Virus record (IMG/VR): IMGVR_UViG_3300042453_002472
Span: 95,978 to 159,977 of that record
Source of the DNA: a virus
DNA: 64,000 bases
Strand: one strand, 5' to 3'
Shown: one piece after another, positions 15,841 to 61,357 of the stretch
How positions within the stretch are numbered: position 1 is the stretch's first letter
Layout: every line of letters starts with the position of its first letter
Made by a program: the position numbers and the translations under genes
The notes under the pieces: model-generated
What the model saw: the letters and a program-made list of their open reading frames with translations, nothing else
Database searches by the model: none
Told to the model about the DNA's origin: nothing

Positions 15841-17001
15841 ATGAGGAATTTATTTTATTTCGGTTTAGAACCACTTAAAGCTCGATACACATATCAGCTT
15901 TCAAAAGAATGGATGCCAGCCACATTCGAACCATATGTAAAAGCTGGAAAATTAAACTTTATAGATATTGAAGGCGAATTTGATCCTGATCAGCAAATTA
16001 AAGTTGGTGCAGTATTAGATGCTATTGGTAGAGGTAAATTTAGTTTGACACAATGTCAAAATTTTCTTCAACGAATTTATAATGATGAAGTTAAATCTGG
16101 AGATATTATCTTTTTGCAAGATTATTGGACTCCTGGTTTAGATGCAATTTGGTATGCATTGGATTTATATGGCATTGAAGTTAAAGTGTATGCAATGCTT
16201 CATGCACAATCTGTTGATGAATATGATTTTACATATCCAATGGCAAAGTGGATGCGTAATTATGAATTAGGATTAGATAAACGAATGTCTGGCATCTTTG
16301 TCGGTAGCACTATTCATAGAGAACAACTTCGAGCAGCTGGATTCACTGCACCAATTCATGTAGTTTCATTACCAATTCATAAACAAGCTACATTAGCAAA
16401 ATTACCAAATATATCTGAACGAAAGAAAAATGTAGTAGTATATTCATCTCGTTTAGACAAAGAAAAGAATCCGTTTTTCATGTTAGATGTTGCAGAACAG
16501 TTTTTAGAACAACATACTATATGGGAATGGCATGTAACTACATCTGGTAAAGAATTTAGATCGATGCTTCCTGATGTAATTGATGCAATGAAAGCATTAG
16601 CTAAACGTCAACCTCGTTTTAAATTGTTAAGTGGATTGTCAAAAGAAGAATATTACACTGAATTAGCTACATGTAAAATTCAGTTCAATTCAGCATTACA
16701 AGATTACGTGTCTTGGACAGTTATTGAAGCAACGGCATTTGGTGCTGATATTGTATATCCTAATTTCAGATCTTTCCCTGAATTTATAGATTATGATCGT
16801 TTATACAAAGCATTTGATGTTACGAGTGCATTACGATTATTACAGCATACAATTGAAACACAAAGAACACATTACAATATAGTTGATATTTCTGACTTAG
16901 GTCGGCAGTTAGAAGCTTATATTATGGTTAATGATATAACTCAAGAACATAATATATGGCATGAAACAGCATATTGTAAACATTTAATACAAGGAAAATA
17001 A
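15841..17001 (+). CDS. Glycosyltransferase-like protein (GT-B fold) next to dpdA
   Basis: A 386-residue GT4-type glycosyltransferase. The C-terminal half has VVVYSSRLDKEKNPFFMLD (about 199-217), a donor-binding start, and SWTVIEATAFGADIVYP (about 293-309), matching the E-x7-E-like nucleotide-sugar region. The N-terminal acceptor domain is unusual. It overlaps the DpdA-like gene by one base and is driven by the same promoter, so it might act on the modified nucleobase rather than on the glycans made far downstream; this is inference. Confidence 0.72.
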   Translation: MRNLFYFGLEPLKARYTYQLSKEWMPATFEPYVKAGKLNFIDIEGEFDPDQQIKVGAVLDAIGRGKFSLTQCQNFLQRIYNDEVKSGDIIFLQDYWTPGLDAIWYALDLYGIEVKVYAMLHAQSVDEYDFTYPMAKWMRNYELGLDKRMSGIFVGSTIHREQLRAAGFTAPIHVVSLPIHKQATLAKLPNISERKKNVVVYSSRLDKEKNPFFMLDVAEQFLEQHTIWEWHVTTSGKEFRSMLPDVIDAMKALAKRQPRFKLLSGLSKEEYYTELATCKIQFNSALQDYVSWTVIEATAFGADIVYPNFRSFPEFIDYDRLYKAFDVTSALRLLQHTIETQRTHYNIVDISDLGRQLEAYIMVNDITQEHNIWHETAYCKHLIQGK

Positions 17002-18251
17002 TGAGTAAAAAGTTTATTTACTATCCTTCATTATCAGCAGGATCAATGGTATCAGCATTCAAAAAGGATGCTAAGTTTGAAGATGGTACCACTATGCGAT
17101 TTTTCGGGAAAGATTATCCAGAAGAATGGAGGCATCCATATTTTTTGATTACAGCAGGTCACCATTACAAGAAAATGGATTTTCGTCAACAGATTGGTCT
17201 AGATGATGATGTATTAGTATTTGGAGATTCAGGAGGATTCCAGATTGCTACTGGTGCATTGAAATGGGATAGCACACTTCGAGAAAAAATATTTCATTGG
17301 TTAGAAGCTAACAGCGATGTAGCAGCTAACTTAGATATTCCACCTCGAGTTACATTTGAAAATCGTTTTCAAGATTCGATGGATATTTCTTTTGATAACT
17401 TTAAATGGTTTGAAAAACATCAATCAGGCAAGACAAAATTCTTAAATGTAATTCAGGGTACATATAACGAAGAATATAACACATGGTATCATAAATTTAA
17501 AGACTTTGACTTTAACGGATGGTGTATTGGAGGTCCAAAGCGATTAGTTGATTTTATGTATGTTATTGCATTAATGTTGCAAGAAAGAGAATTTGAAAAG
17601 CCTCATGTTCAATATATTCACTTGTTAGGTATTTCAAAAATATCAGATTTCTTTATTCTATCCACATTACAAAAGTTACTTAATGACTTAACTAATGGTC
17701 GTGTGCAATTATCGACAGATTCATCGTCACCGGGTCAGTATCCAGTATATGGAACATATCTTCACTCAGGTAATTATAAGACACAGACATTTACAGAATT
17801 GTATTTCCCTAAGAATGCTGAATATCGTAGAAAGACACATATTAAGCAAGGTAAAGATTCGGTAGATATCGATAAGACAAAACATGTACCGTGTAGTATG
17901 GATTGTCCAGCATGTAAAGATTTTACGTATGAATATTTAGGCGGGCTGACTACAGATGGATTGGATCGATATTCACAAGAAGGTATGCCAAGAATGGTTG
18001 TGCATAATACACATTTGTATGTGAATATTGCAAAGGATATTGACAAAATGGTTGATAGTCATGTTGAATTGTTAGAAACAGCTATTCCAACGGATTTGTT
18101 TAATGTGATATTATCATTACATGATATGTTTGCAGATCCAGAAAATGCAATGCATGTATATGCAAAATACAAAAAAACATATAAAAAATTCGGAGGGGAT
18201 TCTATATCAACTACCGATGCAAATAAGTTCGCAGAATTCTTTAAATTTTAA
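17001..18251 (+). CDS. dpdA: DpdA-like DNA 7-deazaguanine transglycosylase (TGT superfamily)
   Basis: A 416-residue member of the tRNA-guanine transglycosylase superfamily. FGDSGGFQIATG (about 73-84) has the catalytic-site Asp of TGT enzymes, GWCIGGPK (about 173-180) the base-binding GG, and STDSSSPG (about 240-247) the likely nucleophile Asp. HVPCSMDCPACKD near 296-308 is the zinc-cysteine site. Phage proteins of this size and context (with folE, queD, queE) exchange guanine in DNA for a 7-deazaguanine base, protecting from host restriction. A tRNA substrate cannot be excluded. Confidence 0.85.
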   Translation: MSKKFIYYPSLSAGSMVSAFKKDAKFEDGTTMRFFGKDYPEEWRHPYFLITAGHHYKKMDFRQQIGLDDDVLVFGDSGGFQIATGALKWDSTLREKIFHWLEANSDVAANLDIPPRVTFENRFQDSMDISFDNFKWFEKHQSGKTKFLNVIQGTYNEEYNTWYHKFKDFDFNGWCIGGPKRLVDFMYVIALMLQEREFEKPHVQYIHLLGISKISDFFILSTLQKLLNDLTNGRVQLSTDSSSPGQYPVYGTYLHSGNYKTQTFTELYFPKNAEYRRKTHIKQGKDSVDIDKTKHVPCSMDCPACKDFTYEYLGGLTTDGLDRYSQEGMPRMVVHNTHLYVNIAKDIDKMVDSHVELLETAIPTDLFNVILSLHDMFADPENAMHVYAKYKKTYKKFGGDSISTTDANKFAEFFKF

Positions 18252-51964: not shown

Positions 51965-52849
51965 ATGATACATCTAAAATCTATACTGTCAGAAGCATCT
52001 CTAGCATTTGACAATGAGTTCAAAGAAATGGTTAAGCAATGGGAAGGTCCTGGACCAACTGATGCTAATGGAAACCATCTAGCATATGATGATGCTAACC
52101 CTAGGGTTCCAGCAAAACCAGGGGCAACGATAATTGGTACACTAACTATTGGATATGGTACAACAGCAGCGGTATATCCGTCGTTAAAACCAGGGATGAA
52201 AATATCAAAAGCTGCAGCTGAAAAGTTGTTAGCAAAAGGCATTGCAGACAATGAAGCAAAAGCAGCTAGGTTGATTCCTAAATTTGCGTCATATCCTAAA
52301 TATGTACGAACGGCAATATTAAATGCAATCTATCGAGGTGACCTAGGACCAGTAACTCGCAAAATGATTAATCAGGGCAAATGGGATAGAGTTGCAGATG
52401 AATATCTTAATCATCCGAATTATCTAAATCCAGGCCGATTTAAAGGTGTAGTTAAACGAATGAAATCTAATGCAGATGCATTTCGTAAATATGCTTCTGA
52501 ACTAAAAGGAACTGGTAGTAAAAGTAAATCTGTTGCAACGAGCTCAGGTATGCCAAAAGATCCTGCGGCAGGATCATTGATAGGTAAACTGGTATATCCT
52601 AGAAAACGAACATCAGCTGACTATGTAAATGTTCGTACGTCCCCAGAAGTAAATACCGGATTAATTCACAATTTTCAAACCAAAATAACATGGCCGGATC
52701 CAGTTGGTAAAATCATGAAAATCTCAAAAGATGACCAAGGTCAAACATGGTATATGGTTAAATTACAACCAGGTGTAGGCAACACTACCGGAGTTGGATA
52801 TGTTCGGTATGACAATGTAACAACTGATAAGAATGCTAAATATATCTAA
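51965..52849 (+). CDS. Tagged lysozyme-like protein with C-terminal SH3-like domain
   Basis: A 294-residue protein. Tag MIHLKSILSEASL (cleavage expected after E10, ILSE-A). The catalytic part resembles GH24 lysozyme: MVKQWEGPGP (likely acid Glu), HLAYDD, then TLTIGYGTTAAV. NAIYRGDLGPVTRKMINQGKW continues the fold. Residues about 205-294 form an SH3-like module (PRKRTSADYVNVRTSPEVNTG). It would degrade peptidoglycan during genome delivery as a virion lysin, rather than act as the lytic endolysin at 43098. Confidence 0.78.
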   Translation: MIHLKSILSEASLAFDNEFKEMVKQWEGPGPTDANGNHLAYDDANPRVPAKPGATIIGTLTIGYGTTAAVYPSLKPGMKISKAAAEKLLAKGIADNEAKAARLIPKFASYPKYVRTAILNAIYRGDLGPVTRKMINQGKWDRVADEYLNHPNYLNPGRFKGVVKRMKSNADAFRKYASELKGTGSKSKSVATSSGMPKDPAAGSLIGKLVYPRKRTSADYVNVRTSPEVNTGLIHNFQTKITWPDPVGKIMKISKDDQGQTWYMVKLQPGVGNTTGVGYVRYDNVTTDKNAKYI

Positions 52850-52890: not shown

Positions 52891-53085
52891 ATGGAGAATT
52901 TTATAGATAAATTATTGATTACATCCATTAACCATATGAAAACTAATTCATGGGAATGGCCAGATCACTGGGATACAGATCGAAAGCAACGATTTTTAAA
53001 TCAATGTTTAGACTATGCAACAAAAAATGAGTTCTATGAACAATGTGCAATTATCAGAGATGTCCAAAAAACAATCAACAACTAA
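52891..53085 (+). CDS. Small hypothetical protein upstream of clpS
   Basis: A 64-residue helical protein with Trp-rich SWEWPDHWDTDRKQRFLNQCLDYA. Ends overlapping the clpS gene by 26 bases. Similar Trp/Asp-rich short proteins are frequent in phage early gene clusters. No function assigned. Confidence 0.55.
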   Translation: MENFIDKLLITSINHMKTNSWEWPDHWDTDRKQRFLNQCLDYATKNEFYEQCAIIRDVQKTINN

Positions 53086-53326
53086 ACGAGGTCAGTGGCA
53101 AGTAATATTGCATAATGATGATATTAACACGTTTGAACATGTGATCGGATGCTTAATGGATATATGTAGCCATAATTATTTACAAGCCGTACAATGTGCG
53201 AATATAGTGCATAACACAAAACAATGTTCAGTGTATGTTAGTAATTATGATGATTGTGAAATGGCATTCGAAGAACTATATTCTCAAGGTTTAAATGTTA
53301 CATTAGAAAAATACAAACAACGATGA
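53060..53326 (+). CDS. clpS: ClpS-like adaptor protein
   Basis: An 88-residue N-end-rule adaptor of ClpAP/ClpCP. WQVILHNDDINTFEHVIGCL (about 13-32) is the conserved ClpS N-degron-binding beta-strand/helix with the Asn-Asp pair, followed by IVHNTKQCSVYVSNYDDCEMAFEEL and a C-terminal LNVTLEK. I start at 53060. A phage-encoded ClpS could redirect or block host proteolysis. The NDDxNTFxHVI form is what I associate with Bacteroidota. Stop overlaps the next start (ATGA). Confidence 0.82.
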   Translation: MSKKQSTTKRGQWQVILHNDDINTFEHVIGCLMDICSHNYLQAVQCANIVHNTKQCSVYVSNYDDCEMAFEELYSQGLNVTLEKYKQR

Positions 53327-53499
53327 TTAAATGGTGGTATAAATTTAGGATTAATATGCTGCATGCTACATATCATAGAAATATGAAACGAGCTGAAGCA
53401 GCCCGAAAAGAACAAAACATTATTGAATTTAAAAAATATATTTACCAGGCAGAAGATGCTTGGCGTAAAATAGTTATATTAACAGAAAAAACAAAATAA
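53323..53499 (+). CDS. Very small basic hypothetical protein
   Basis: A 58-residue protein starting MIKWWYKFRINMLHATYHR, Lys/Arg-rich and helical (KRAEAARKEQNIIEFKKY). It overlaps clpS by 4 bases (ATGA), the strongest support for its being real. Possible partner of the ClpS-like adaptor; no family recognised. Confidence 0.55.
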   Translation: MIKWWYKFRINMLHATYHRNMKRAEAARKEQNIIEFKKYIYQAEDAWRKIVILTEKTK

Positions 53500-53502
53500 G
53501 TT

Positions 53503-53889
53503 ATGGGTAAAAGATCAGTATACTCAGGTGAATCGGCGAAGGACCGTTCAATAAATTTGATGGATAAATTCATCACAAAAAATGCAAATCGAGAAAAGAA
53601 TCATCCAATCCTTCCAGCACGCCGTAAAGATCCTAACATTGCATTAGAATTATGGCCACTTAAAGATCAAATTGAATACTGGGAAACGCGCACAGATGCA
53701 GATCGTTTTGACGAACAATATTCAGCATATTCTACATGGTATGATGATCTTAAACAAAGAAGCGGTGTGTATCCATCTACATTCTTAGATTTTACAAGCA
53801 AATTAAAAACGGAGATGCGAGAAATGTGGGAACGTAAAATGCATCCTAAACATGCTATTATCGAACTCCGCAAAAAAGGAGTATATTAA
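53503..53889 (+). CDS. Hypothetical protein
   Basis: A 128-residue charged protein (VYSGESAKDRSINLMDKFITKNANREKNH) with Arg/Lys-rich termini. No motif recognised. It lies 3 bases after the preceding small gene and 2 bases before the HNH gene. Confidence 0.6.
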   Translation: MGKRSVYSGESAKDRSINLMDKFITKNANREKNHPILPARRKDPNIALELWPLKDQIEYWETRTDADRFDEQYSAYSTWYDDLKQRSGVYPSTFLDFTSKLKTEMREMWERKMHPKHAIIELRKKGVY

Positions 53890-53891
53890 TT

Positions 53892-54443
53892 ATGTCTCAG
53901 CAGTATAAGTATGTGTATGGAAAAGGACGTACGGCATATGATTTGCCAGAGTCTGATATTCGATATGCAATAGCTAATACTAAATCAAATGCCGAAGCAG
54001 CTCGTTTCTTAAAGATATCATTCACTACATACAAAAAATATGCTAAAATGTATGTGGATTCTGAAACCGGTAAAACTTTGTATGATATGCATACAAACCA
54101 AGCTGGACATGGTATTACTAAAGACAGTCAACGAGCAGCAGCAGGTCGATATACAATTGATGGTATATTAGAAGGCAAGTATCCAAACTATCCAACATGG
54201 AAGCTTCGTAATCGGTTGTTGGCATTGAACATAATGGCAGAAGAATGCCAGTGCTGTGGATATGCAGAACGAAGAGTTACTGATGATACGGTACCGTTGC
54301 TATTAGATCATATTGATGGTGATGAAACCAATCATCGCATAGAAAATTTACAAATGCTTTGTTTGAATTGTTATTATCAACAGGTAGGTGCTCCTTTTAA
54401 TAAAGAGAAGGAAATGTTTTGGAACTATAATGCACTAGGCTGA
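53892..54443 (+). CDS. HNH endonuclease-like protein
   Basis: A 183-residue protein. The N-terminal half is helical with SDIRYAIANTKSNAEAARFL, a helix-turn-helix-like DNA-binding segment. The C-terminal half has CQCCGY, LLLDHIDGDETNHRIENLQMLCLNCYYQ, a zinc-finger-HNH motif with two Cys pairs and the catalytic D-H. It could be a homing endonuclease or a DNA-packaging nicking enzyme; the plain insertion between two unrelated genes favours the former. Confidence 0.75.
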   Translation: MSQQYKYVYGKGRTAYDLPESDIRYAIANTKSNAEAARFLKISFTTYKKYAKMYVDSETGKTLYDMHTNQAGHGITKDSQRAAAGRYTIDGILEGKYPNYPTWKLRNRLLALNIMAEECQCCGYAERRVTDDTVPLLLDHIDGDETNHRIENLQMLCLNCYYQQVGAPFNKEKEMFWNYNALG

Positions 54444-54455
54444 TATTTATTAATA
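54443..54455 (+). promoter_or_regulatory. Late-type AT element abutting start codon
   Basis: ATATTTATTAATA ending at the A of the ATG at 54455; the TG of the HNH gene's TGA stop lies just before it. Confidence 0.45.
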
Positions 54456-55204
54456 TGGTATCAATGAAAGCTCTTATTATCGAAGGACGTTACGATAGCA
54501 TAGTATCCGAACTGTCTCGTAGATTGCTTAAGGTAGTAAAAGATAGTTATTCTTCCGTAACAGATCCAAAAGGTATGTTTGCTGGAAAAAAGATATACTT
54601 CAAATCCGGAGAATCAGTTCCTAATATCGATGATGATTCTGTATTCAAAGAGATTTATTTTGAAGAAGTAGAAAATGCTACTATACCATTAGATTTCTAT
54701 CTAGCACTTAAAGTGCAATGGGTTGAAGGTTTAAATGATTTCCGAATCGGTGGTGATGCTTACAACGCAACAGGTAAAAATGCAGATGAAATGCCATTGG
54801 TTGAAATTCGCTTTGAACTAGATCCAGCGGAATATCCTCAAGTATTAAGTGAAGTTGCAATTGAACTGCGAGACACATTGCGTCATGAAATTGAGCATAC
54901 TACACAATCCGGATGGAACACAATTGATTCTAAATATTTGCCATCAGACATGGCGCAACGATCCAAAATACAGACTGGTGATCAACGCCCGGCGAAATAT
55001 TTCTTACTTAAAAAAGAAATCCCAGCAATGATACAAGGAATGTATCTCAAAGCTAAAAAGAAACGAGTACCATTTAAAATAGTAGTTGATGAATACTTGG
55101 GACGATGGGTTGCAAATGGAACTATTACTGCACAAGAAAAACAACAAATAATAGATACCTGGAGAACATATCTCCCTAAATTAGGAATACGACAGGAGTT
55201 GTAA
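54455..55204 (+). CDS. Tagged HExxH metallopeptidase-like protein
   Basis: A 249-residue protein starting MVSMKALIIEGRYD; an alternative ATG at codon 4 gives MKALIIEG, closer to the tag of its neighbours, with cleavage expected after LIIE. The zinc-binding HExxH is RHEIEHTTQSG (H144, E145, H148). No third ligand is certain. The protein is acidic in the middle and basic toward the C-terminus. A packaged protease could act on host envelope or on virion proteins. Start overlaps the AT element at 54443 and the stop shares one base with the next gene. Confidence 0.7.
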   Translation: MVSMKALIIEGRYDSIVSELSRRLLKVVKDSYSSVTDPKGMFAGKKIYFKSGESVPNIDDDSVFKEIYFEEVENATIPLDFYLALKVQWVEGLNDFRIGGDAYNATGKNADEMPLVEIRFELDPAEYPQVLSEVAIELRDTLRHEIEHTTQSGWNTIDSKYLPSDMAQRSKIQTGDQRPAKYFLLKKEIPAMIQGMYLKAKKKRVPFKIVVDEYLGRWVANGTITAQEKQQIIDTWRTYLPKLGIRQEL

Positions 55205-56389: not shown

Positions 56390-57529
56390 ATGAAAAGCAA
56401 AACATTTGGTATTATCCGAGATGGTCGGGTATTTGAAGTAAACAGTGGCAATGATATTACAGCATTGTTCCGAGACAGTATGATTAAAGCAGCAGCGCAG
56501 AACGGCAAAGCATTAGCATTTGATCCGGACACTGCACGAGCTCGGCAAGTAGATTTATCTGAAATCCCAACAGAGCCAGCAACACCACAACCTAAGCCGG
56601 TAACGGAAATGGATGCTGCCATGGCATTAATTACACGTGCGGCAGATATCAAACCAGCTGATTTGGAAATGTCTGACATTAAATGGAAGTATCTTGTAAG
56701 GTCAGCAGTTCGTGGCAAAAACATAATGATGGTTGGTCCAGCTGGATGTGGTAAGACTCAGGCAGCAAAGGCTCTTCCTCAAGCAACAGATCGACCTTTC
56801 TTTTATTTCAATTTAGGAGCTACGCAGGATCCTCGTGCCACTCTTATTGGTAACACTCACTTTAAAGATGGACAAACTACATTTGATGAGTCGGCATTTG
56901 TGAAAGCAATTCAAACTGAGAATGCAGTTATATTAATGGATGAGTTGTCACGAGCTCATCCCGAAGCATGGAATATCTTAATGACAGTACTAGATGAAGG
57001 TCAACGTTACCTTCGACTTGATGAAGATATCGATGCTCCAACTATCCAGGTAGCTCCAGGCGTATCATTTATTGCAACGGCAAACATTGGTACGGAGTAT
57101 ACATCGACACGCGTATTAGACCGAGCATTAATGGATCGATTTGAAATTATTGAGGTTGATATCTTGACATTAGAACGCGAAGAAGCATTGCTAATGAAAC
57201 GTTACGGCAATGTAGTGTCAGCTGATTTGATTCATGCGGTAGCAGATATTGCCGACACAACTCGTAAAGAATGGAGATCTGAAACCGGTAAGCTAACCAC
57301 AATGGTTTCTACTCGTATGACAGTTCGTGTATGTGAGTTGTTGGCAGATGGATTCACGTTAGCAGAAGCAGCAGAGGTTTCAATACTCCCATTCTTTGAT
57401 GCATCTGGTGGAACCGATTCAGAAAGAACATTTATTAAACAGATTATACAGAAACATATGGCTACTGCTGAGAAAGACATTTTCAACACCGGTGAGGTAG
57501 ATCGAGAGTCTGAAAGCATACCATTCTAA
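56390..57529 (+). CDS. MoxR/CobS-like AAA+ ATPase
   Basis: A 379-residue AAA+ ATPase. After an 85-residue unique N-terminus come Walker A MMVGPAGCGKTQ (about 114-125), Walker B VILMDELSRAH (about 182-192), TANIGTEYTSTRVLDRALMDRFEIIEV (sensor and Arg-finger region, about 228-255) and a winged C-terminal lid. MoxR ATPases act as chaperone-like motors with a VWA partner; the gene after the hairpin encodes one. In cyanophages such genes are often labelled cobS. Confidence 0.88.
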   Translation: MKSKTFGIIRDGRVFEVNSGNDITALFRDSMIKAAAQNGKALAFDPDTARARQVDLSEIPTEPATPQPKPVTEMDAAMALITRAADIKPADLEMSDIKWKYLVRSAVRGKNIMMVGPAGCGKTQAAKALPQATDRPFFYFNLGATQDPRATLIGNTHFKDGQTTFDESAFVKAIQTENAVILMDELSRAHPEAWNILMTVLDEGQRYLRLDEDIDAPTIQVAPGVSFIATANIGTEYTSTRVLDRALMDRFEIIEVDILTLEREEALLMKRYGNVVSADLIHAVADIADTTRKEWRSETGKLTTMVSTRMTVRVCELLADGFTLAEAAEVSILPFFDASGGTDSERTFIKQIIQKHMATAEKDIFNTGEVDRESESIPF

Positions 57530-57669: not shown

Positions 57670-59697
57670 ATGAAAAAAGATTTTGGGTTTAAAGGTTATG
57701 CAAATTCCACCGCATCAAGTTTCTGGTTAGACTCAGACTTTGATGTTAATTTCCGAGAAGAAAATCGTGTTGATTATACTAAATTAGCTGCAGCTCAAAG
57801 AGCTATTGGTAATTTTGTTAATATTGTTACTGGCCAGCAAATACCAGTTGTATTTCAAAGCCGAGAAGAGAGTTATACAGACGGTAAGCGAGTTGTTATC
57901 GGCACTAAACTTGAGGATAAGAATTTTGATCCGGCAGTTGGATTAGCATTGCATGAAGGCAGTCACATTGCATTTACTAACTTTTCATTGTTTGAAGGTG
58001 CTACTCGTTTATCCAATTCTAAATTTGCAAATCGAATTCGACTTAAAGGCCTGGATCCGGATATGAACATGACCGAAGCCGAGTTTTCTAATATCAAGTC
58101 ATTGTTGAATTGGATTGAAGATCGTCGCATTGATTACAAAGTATATACAAATGCTCCAGGATATCGTATGTATTATGAAGCAATGTATAACAAGTATTTC
58201 AATGATAAGATTATTGATAAAGCATTGCAAACTGGAGAAAAGGTTGCTGAGGATATGGATAGTTACATGTTTCATATTATCAATTTTACTAATCCAAATC
58301 GTCAGTTAGATGCCTTAAAGGAACTGCGACGCATATGGAATCTTGTTGATTTGAAAAATATTAATCGTTTGAAATCGACTGAGGATGCGCTAGATTTGGC
58401 GTGTGATGTATATCGTGTTCTTCGAGATGCTACTGCTAATGCAGAACAAGAAACCAATAATGTGTTTGATGATGTTCAAAAAGGCAATGATCCAGGCGGT
58501 GATAGTATGCAAATGGAAGCGGATGTCAGTGATGATGAACAAGACTTAACAGAAGATAATGATGATTCAGATAAAGGTTCTTCTTTAACATTAAAAGAAC
58601 TTGACAAGTTGCAAAAAGCAATACAAGCACAACAAGATTTTCTCGATGGTGATGTAGCTAAAAAAGGTCGATTAACTAAAAAGGATGCTGGCATCGTAGA
58701 AGCGATTAAAGAATCTGGTACTGAGACGCGAGTTGTGTATACAGATGCTGGCGGTACTGGTTGTCCTGTTGAAACAATTGTAGTCAAAAAATTGACTCCA
58801 GCAATCATAGAATCATTACCTAGTTTGTTTGCATCACATGCAAGTGAGTATGTTTCGGGCACGCGAGTGTTTAATGAAAGTAACTGGGGCAGTCGTACGA
58901 TTATCCAACATCAACAAGCAGTCGATGCCGGCATTGTGTTAGGCAAGAAGTTAGGTAATAAGTTGCAACTCCGAAACTCAGATAAGAGTTTGAAGTCAAC
59001 TAGATTAGCAGCTGGTAAAATTGATAAGCGTTTAATATCTCAATTGGGATATAACAATGTGAATGTGTTTCATCGTGTAGTAACTGATCGATACAAGAAC
59101 TATTTCATACACATTTCAATTGACGCATCTGGTTCAATGAATGGTGATAAGTTCAAACAAGCTATTACAAGTGCAGTAGCAGTCGCACAAGCAGCTTCAA
59201 TGACAACCGGTATCCGAGTACAAATTGCTTTCCGCGGTACTGATACTATAGGAGGAGGTCGTGAAAAATGTGTTACGGTTTATGCATATGATTCGGCACA
59301 TGACAAAATGAATAAGATACGAAGCTATTTCAAATACTTAACAACATTTGGATGTACTCCGGAGGGCATTGCTTTCAAAAGTATTGAGTCAGATCTTAAA
59401 TCGGACGCAAAAGGAGATGAATTGATATTCCTTAATTATTCAGATGGTGAACCTACAGATATATCCGGCACTGACAGTTACTATAACGGAGTGCAATTCA
59501 CCCGACGTGTTATTAACGGTTTCCGAGGATTAGGCATGAACATTGTAAGTTATTTTATTTATTCTGGATATGTATATGCAGATACCCGAGAAAATTTTCA
59601 GAAAATGTATGGCATCGATGCCCAATTCATCAATCCAGAAGATATGAGAGATGTTGCAAAAACATTGAATCAAAAATTCTTGGAAATGGCTGTGTAA
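57670..59697 (+). CDS. HExxH plus VWA-domain protein (CobT-like)
   Basis: A 675-residue partner for the upstream MoxR ATPase. LALHEGSHIAFTNF (H95, E96, H99) is a zinc-metallopeptidase-like HExxH. An acidic linker (about 270-305, DDEQDLTEDNDDSDKG) separates it from a VWA domain with the MIDAS DASGSMNG (D485, S487, S489) and LNYSDGEPTDISG. CobT of cobalt chelatase has the same VWA and acidic linker; the HExxH speaks for a peptidase or processing role. Either a chaperone-like complex or a protease checkpoint is possible. Confidence 0.82.
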   Translation: MKKDFGFKGYANSTASSFWLDSDFDVNFREENRVDYTKLAAAQRAIGNFVNIVTGQQIPVVFQSREESYTDGKRVVIGTKLEDKNFDPAVGLALHEGSHIAFTNFSLFEGATRLSNSKFANRIRLKGLDPDMNMTEAEFSNIKSLLNWIEDRRIDYKVYTNAPGYRMYYEAMYNKYFNDKIIDKALQTGEKVAEDMDSYMFHIINFTNPNRQLDALKELRRIWNLVDLKNINRLKSTEDALDLACDVYRVLRDATANAEQETNNVFDDVQKGNDPGGDSMQMEADVSDDEQDLTEDNDDSDKGSSLTLKELDKLQKAIQAQQDFLDGDVAKKGRLTKKDAGIVEAIKESGTETRVVYTDAGGTGCPVETIVVKKLTPAIIESLPSLFASHASEYVSGTRVFNESNWGSRTIIQHQQAVDAGIVLGKKLGNKLQLRNSDKSLKSTRLAAGKIDKRLISQLGYNNVNVFHRVVTDRYKNYFIHISIDASGSMNGDKFKQAITSAVAVAQAASMTTGIRVQIAFRGTDTIGGGREKCVTVYAYDSAHDKMNKIRSYFKYLTTFGCTPEGIAFKSIESDLKSDAKGDELIFLNYSDGEPTDISGTDSYYNGVQFTRRVINGFRGLGMNIVSYFIYSGYVYADTRENFQKMYGIDAQFINPEDMRDVAKTLNQKFLEMAV

Positions 59698-59731: not shown

Positions 59732-61356
<1,625 letters not shown>

Positions 61357-61357
<1 letters not shown>

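Follow-up and report, generated by a model that had tools for sequence, protein, structure and literature searches.

What would a virus do with ClpS, an adaptor of Clp proteases? The question is raised by a small gene in the window, i.e., the whole 64,000-nucleotide stretch of DNA that was analysed, which forms the final 64 kb of a virus record of 159,977 bases (~160 kb):

53060..53326, + strand: clpS, an 88-aa ClpS-family adaptor of the Bacteroidota type with a short N-terminal extension (Pfam PF02617)

A preliminary description of this DNA had noticed a ClpS-like protein with the Asn-Asp residues of the substrate pocket, and this observation held up: N19-D20-D21, the equivalents of E. coli N34-D35-D36, and H51, the equivalent of H66, are present. 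The protein matched PF02617 with 63.6 bits, the curated cut-off being 23 bits (E=1.5e-17; residues 11-79, positions 4-78 of the 80 in the profile), and among the PHROGs it weakly matched phrog_27368 ('ATP-dependent protease'; E=0.0015). Judged by its sequence, the product of 53060-53326 is a genuine ClpS-family protein. The likely start of the gene is at 53060. An alternative in-frame ATG at 53015 would add 15 codons; it was dropped because these codons fall inside the conserved upstream gene, u64 (see below), and because the relatives L003 and L004 lack an ATG upstream of the 53060 equivalent. When the phage record was searched for Clp partners, both ClpP and the Clp_N domain were absent, and therefore ClpS can act on Clp solely via the host machine.

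The host of the window phage is likely a member of the Bacteroidota, since the relatives of its ClpS and a GroEL encoded by the phage both point to that phylum. The closest cellular relatives of the window ClpS come from Bacteroidota, with identity up to 48%, in a ranking that is partly biased by the search pattern used. The GroEL gene lies farther downstream:

59738-61357, + strand: full-length phage GroEL of 539 aa, with 67-72% identity to the GroEL of Bacteroidota/Chlorobiota

Its identity to planctomycete and actinobacterial GroEL, in comparison, is 51-58%. Start sites of the window phage are A-rich; Shine-Dalgarno-like motifs are more frequent than in shuffles, yet are found in a minority of genes. 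On the host side, ClpS was present in 125 of 149 Bacteroidia genomes, and a protein of 844-876 aa with Clp_N and UVR domains was found in each of the four Bacteroidia genomes checked for both domains, consistent with these proteins being ClpC.

The phage clpS is the second gene of a block of four, which is followed by an endonuclease-like gene:

52891..53085, + strand: u64, a 64-aa protein of an orphan family, overlapping the clpS start by 26 bases

53323..53499, + strand: h58, a 58-aa basic protein of an orphan family, its start overlapping the clpS stop by 4 bases (ATGA)

53503..53889, + strand: d128, which comes after h58 in a constant order across the clade and encodes a mostly helical, 128-aa protein of an orphan family

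53892..54443, + strand: HNH endonuclease-like protein, 183 aa, syntenic and downstream of the block (phrog_10822 HNH endonuclease, E=1.2e-16)

ClpS had been described before as coupled by a 4-base overlap to a micro-gene for a basic, 58-residue protein. This was right as far as it went, the start of the 58-aa ORF lying inside the ClpS stop, but the 26-base overlap with u64, the conserved block, and the variation of the pocket in close relatives had been omitted. Searches of viral contigs reached 88 stretches with u64 (80 kept), 49 loci with h58, and 7 with ClpS itself; some contigs were reached via both u64 and h58, so that the loci counts are not independent. ClpS lies between u64 and h58 in 107 of the 110 loci scanned, and the remaining three end just after u64. 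The gene order u64, clpS, h58, d128, HNH was constant in the cassette loci compared, with the HNH gene directly after d128 in all of them, and it is also kept in the more distant L003 and L004. Because clpS and h58 overlap, by 4-32 bases, at 61 of 63 distinct junctions, the overlap is not due to chance. Purifying selection acts on all four block genes (median dN/dS: u64, 0.22; ClpS, 0.28; h58, 0.26; d128, 0.22). Given the fixed order, the junction overlaps and the purifying selection across the clade, the block is part of the core of an uncultured clade rather than a stray acquired gene. The members of this clade are large, T4-like, uncultured viruses carrying clpS as a core gene, and their hosts are probably Bacteroidota bacteria.

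Among named phage records, no isolate carries the block, u64 and d128 each being absent; the closest to the window ClpS in these records are from three unannotated metagenomic phages of 635-642 kb (37-45% identity). The nearest DNA polymerase to that of the window phage is from Microcystis phage Mel-JY01 (44.5%), for which a literature search found no paper. In the unrelated viral ClpS loci L006 and L007, a tRNA-like stretch (containing TTCCAAGCA) is found just after the clpS stop. In the window itself no tRNA gene was found; a gene at 17001-18251 (+ strand) matches queuine tRNA-ribosyltransferase (TGT; E=3.3e-7). Just 3' of the ClpS region there is a gene for a CobS/MoxR-like AAA ATPase (56390-57529, + strand) and then one for a large protein with a cobalamin-biosynthesis-like match (57670-59697, + strand).

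The small proteins of the block have invariant segments, EQCAIIRDV in the u64 family alignment and AEDAW in the h58 family. The 58-residue protein has 14 Lys/Arg as compared to 6 Asp/Glu residues, and its AlphaFold model is a two-helix hairpin (helices 2-29 and 33-57; pLDDT 95.8). No confident match to h58 was found in Pfam, among PDB sequences or by fold, and assigning a function from the fold was given up, since a two-helix hairpin resembles many unrelated proteins, all with E above 1. PDB-sequence and fold searches with d128 were likewise without a match. A C-terminal stretch of u64 is weakly UVR-like (hhalign score 16.9, where 100 column shuffles reached at most 15.1). Membership of u64 in the UVR family was nevertheless rejected: none of 25 family members matched Pfam UVR (PF02151) at E up to 5, and the motif's RD is absent in the relative L003; the likeness is a lead only.

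In Caulobacter ClpS, N47, D49 and H79 contact the alpha-amino group (PMC12493166). The alpha-amino-binding residues of E. coli ClpS, N34, D36 and H66, correspond to N19, D21 and H51 of the window ClpS, and all are intact. For the clade we used 62 distinct ClpS sequences, drawn from the loci found by the neighbour searches, and for cells 50 HMM-drawn Bacteroidia ClpS; a first set of bacterial ClpS was kept out of the pocket statistics, as its search pattern contained the pocket motif itself. The triad was jointly intact in 12 of the 62 clade sequences vs. 47 of the 50 cellular ones, so that the earlier argument from the pocket does not hold as a general rule. The cellular set shows no variation at N34 or H66 and has D or E at the D36 position in 47 sequences; in the clade set N34 is replaced by D in 15 sequences, D36 is retained in 21, and H66 is replaced by D or N in 7. 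The kinds of change are limited, N34 going to D, D36 mostly to N or S, and H66 mostly to D, and a tree built without these three columns requires at least 9, 23, and 4 changes, respectively. General divergence does not explain the loss of the triad, because the phage set is less diverse than the cellular set (mean identity 51% vs. 40%). Against random triples of columns the triad excess is moderate (permutation P about 0.03). The hydrophobic positions of the specificity pocket (17, 28, 47, 50 and 78) are conserved in the clade at least as well as in cells.

Changes are also seen outside the triad. Gly69, invariant in cellular ClpS, is lost in about half of the clade and is Lys in the window phage. 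Both ends of an alpha3 surface segment, D61..C66, are near-invariant in the phages, unlike in cells, the window ClpS itself having Ser at 61. Residue 84 (numbered as in the window ClpS) is Lys in 61 of the 62 clade proteins, a point at which most cellular sequences have already ended. The repeated alteration of the pocket suggests that the host protease is re-tuned rather than that the host adaptor is copied, and changes such as D36N or H66D could have re-tuned, rather than abolished, binding of the alpha-amino group.

These pocket data bear on two ways in which the phage protein might deliver substrates. The phage ClpS may be a working N-degron adaptor, supplementing the host ClpS and delivering to host ClpCP those proteins, whether of the host or of the phage, whose N-termini are destabilising, a role already proposed for the ClpS of jumbo phages (PMC7824862). 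Such ordinary delivery could operate in the window phage because its triad is intact, as is its hydrophobic pocket, and NDD plus His is also found in the relative L003, in the unrelated viral ClpS of L005, and in the L006 and L007 translations. With the triad kept by so few clade members, with an N-terminal extension that is short (see below), and with purifying selection still keeping clpS although its pocket has changed, we consider ordinary delivery an unlikely role, if one to be kept in view. Alternatively, the hydrophobic pocket might read a new signal, an internal or an N-terminally blocked (e.g., formylated) side chain, the free-amino anchor being dispensable. Conservation of the hydrophobic positions alongside a relaxed alpha-amino triad, and triad changes that recur and are of few kinds, would fit a new signal, but the hydrophobic residues are perhaps retained for folding and the idea comes without a candidate substrate; we regard it as quite improbable.

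A second departure from the cellular adaptor is in the N-terminal extension. The N34 equivalent is preceded by 18 residues in the window ClpS and by 16-21 in nearly all clade ClpS, as compared to at least 24, and typically 26-37, in cellular ClpS, for which plausible upstream Met residues were taken as starts. In the window ClpS, 11 to 12 residues lie ahead of the core, and compared to cells the phage extension lacks about 10 residues. The E. coli ClpS extension, with its roughly 25 residues long enough to engage both unfoldase rings, lies inside the ClpA channel, with residues 16-26 in the D1 (first) ring and residues 2-15 in the D2 (second) ring, and the pull on this extension forms part of delivery (PMC9663308). 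With E. coli ClpA as the yardstick, from which ClpC may differ, the short phage extension should mainly reach the first ATPase ring, and the shortness would thus favour docking over full delivery. The docking residues E79, E82 and K84 of E. coli ClpS are N62, D65 and E67 in the window ClpS; the Bacteroidia ClpS do not keep them either.

The mechanism that we favour is that phage ClpS docks on the N-domain of host ClpC and alters what ClpCP degrades, either by re-specifying or by restraining the protease, a proposal that we rate the leading candidate though somewhat short of probable. Phage ClpS would be produced during infection, would bind the host unfoldase, which in Bacteroidota is ClpC, at its N-domain, and would displace, or compete with, the host ClpS. 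Once docked it would slow other degradation, and in some clade members the modified pocket might present a particular target chosen by the phage. The products of u64 and h58 may be co-translated with ClpS and work as partners of it or of ClpC. In E. coli, ClpS inhibits the degradation of ssrA substrates (PMC9663308). Leptospira ClpS1, in which the pocket His is replaced by Asp, binds ClpA and inhibits both its ATPase and its proteolysis (PMC12493166), and because it still binds and suppresses ClpA, a modulator can do without the canonical triad. The two live mechanisms, redirection of proteolysis and blocking of the host adaptor, had both been listed in the preliminary description. More broadly, clade ClpS might be a host-protease modulator that acts on ClpC together with u64 and h58 and does not need a free N-terminus, so that part of the ClpCP activity is turned off or given a new recognition rule; this wider claim we hold tentatively, as possible rather than probable.

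Two further roles turn on the neighbourhood of the block, in which several genes have N-terminal tags:

51965..52849, + strand: lysozyme-domain protein with tag MIHLKSILSE, upstream neighbour and context only (Pfam Phage_lysozyme, E=2.2e-7)

54455-55204, + strand: 249-aa protein with a tag and a HEIEH motif like that of metalloproteases (DTLRHEIEHTTQ), having relatives across the clade

G000:C1:65604-66092, not within the window: prohead protease of the S77 type (E=9.1e-34 to Pfam PF03420)

Members of the tag family, MxKLxxLLxE, are at window positions 430, 7419, 14147, 21502, 50141, 50557, 51632, 51965, 54455 and 55204, and elsewhere in the record. Several tags continue as LAENMRRFxTKNLNE, and a second cleavage site is possible. 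A scan found prohead-cleavage-type N-termini in 16 ORFs where 1.2 were expected, the cleavage sites being predictions from the sequence. It had been suggested earlier that phage ClpS guards or handles proteins whose N-termini are newly exposed by prohead cleavage. The block does lie between tagged genes (51632 and 51965 upstream, 54455 and 55204 downstream), and the excess of tag-like N-termini and the S77 prohead protease would supply the cleaved proteins; nothing beyond this proximity of genes links them to ClpS, however, and tagged genes are found elsewhere too. In the clear tags the predicted cleavage would leave I, N, A, D, S, K and G at P1', with none of F, L, W or Y, so that the residues to be exposed are not classical N-degrons, and new ClpS would be made only once the injected proteins are already inside. 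Ile leaves a small opening, because cyanobacterial ClpS2 can bind Ile (PMC7966870). In sum, the link to prohead cleavage is weak and a role of this kind is very unlikely. The same surroundings might instead indicate that the ClpS fold was co-opted for a non-Clp role, e.g., in assembling the virion or in pairing structurally with u64 and h58. The location among tagged, probably internal-head genes, the phage-specific D61..C66 surface motif, and the fixed block with small orphan genes would all suit such a co-option, but the core is still recognisable as ClpS and several pocket residues are kept, and we think a non-Clp role distinctly unlikely.

How phages control host AAA+ proteases is poorly understood, and those phage ClpS genes that we found in the literature have been noted rather than studied. 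In the clade, an otherwise conserved ClpS comes with dozens of natural versions of the N-degron pocket, together with fixed small partner genes. With such a clade it can be tested directly whether ClpS must read free N-termini in order to act on Clp unfoldases, and whether phages steer host protein degradation by adaptors rather than by protease inhibitors.

The phage protein differs from each of the known ClpS systems in its own way. It shares with Bacteroidota cellular ClpS the fold family and the NDD..NTF..H, QCA and GKC-type segments, at the identity given above, whereas in the clade the extension is about 10 residues shorter, the triad and Gly69 are relaxed, and alpha3 is changed to D61..C66. 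With the ClpS of E. coli and Caulobacter, the N-recognin of ClpAP, the window ClpS has in common the fold and the equivalents of N34, D36 and H66; compared to the E. coli protein, the Met40 gate is Phe, Met62 is Ala, E79, E82 and K84 are lost, and the N-terminal extension is about half as long. Leptospira ClpS1 resembles the altered clade members in its natural change of the pocket His to Asp and still binds and inhibits ClpA (PMC12493166), but it is cellular, has an N-domain of normal length (22 residues), and has a second, canonical ClpS alongside. In chloroplasts ClpS1 works with ClpF, a plant UVR protein (PMC7966870), i.e., ClpS is teamed with a second, UVR-bearing factor, and the end of phage u64 is weakly UVR-like; ClpF, however, also has a YccV domain while u64 has no Pfam UVR match, and the parallel is a lead only. 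Phage-encoded ClpS is already published as a kind, including the idea of targeting to host ClpAP: a jumbo-phage survey found ClpS in several phages (e.g., AMM43882.1) and proposed it as a supplier of targets to host ClpAP (PMC7824862), and in Agrobacterium phage Atu_ph07 ClpS (gp708) is listed alongside ClpA, ClpX and a Clp proteolytic subunit (PMC6102473). Atu_ph07 thus has Clp components of its own, unlike the window phage with neither ClpP nor Clp_N, and ClpS is found in only some of the surveyed jumbo phages, whereas in the window clade it is part of a fixed, overlapping four-gene block. It is this genomic context that looks new.
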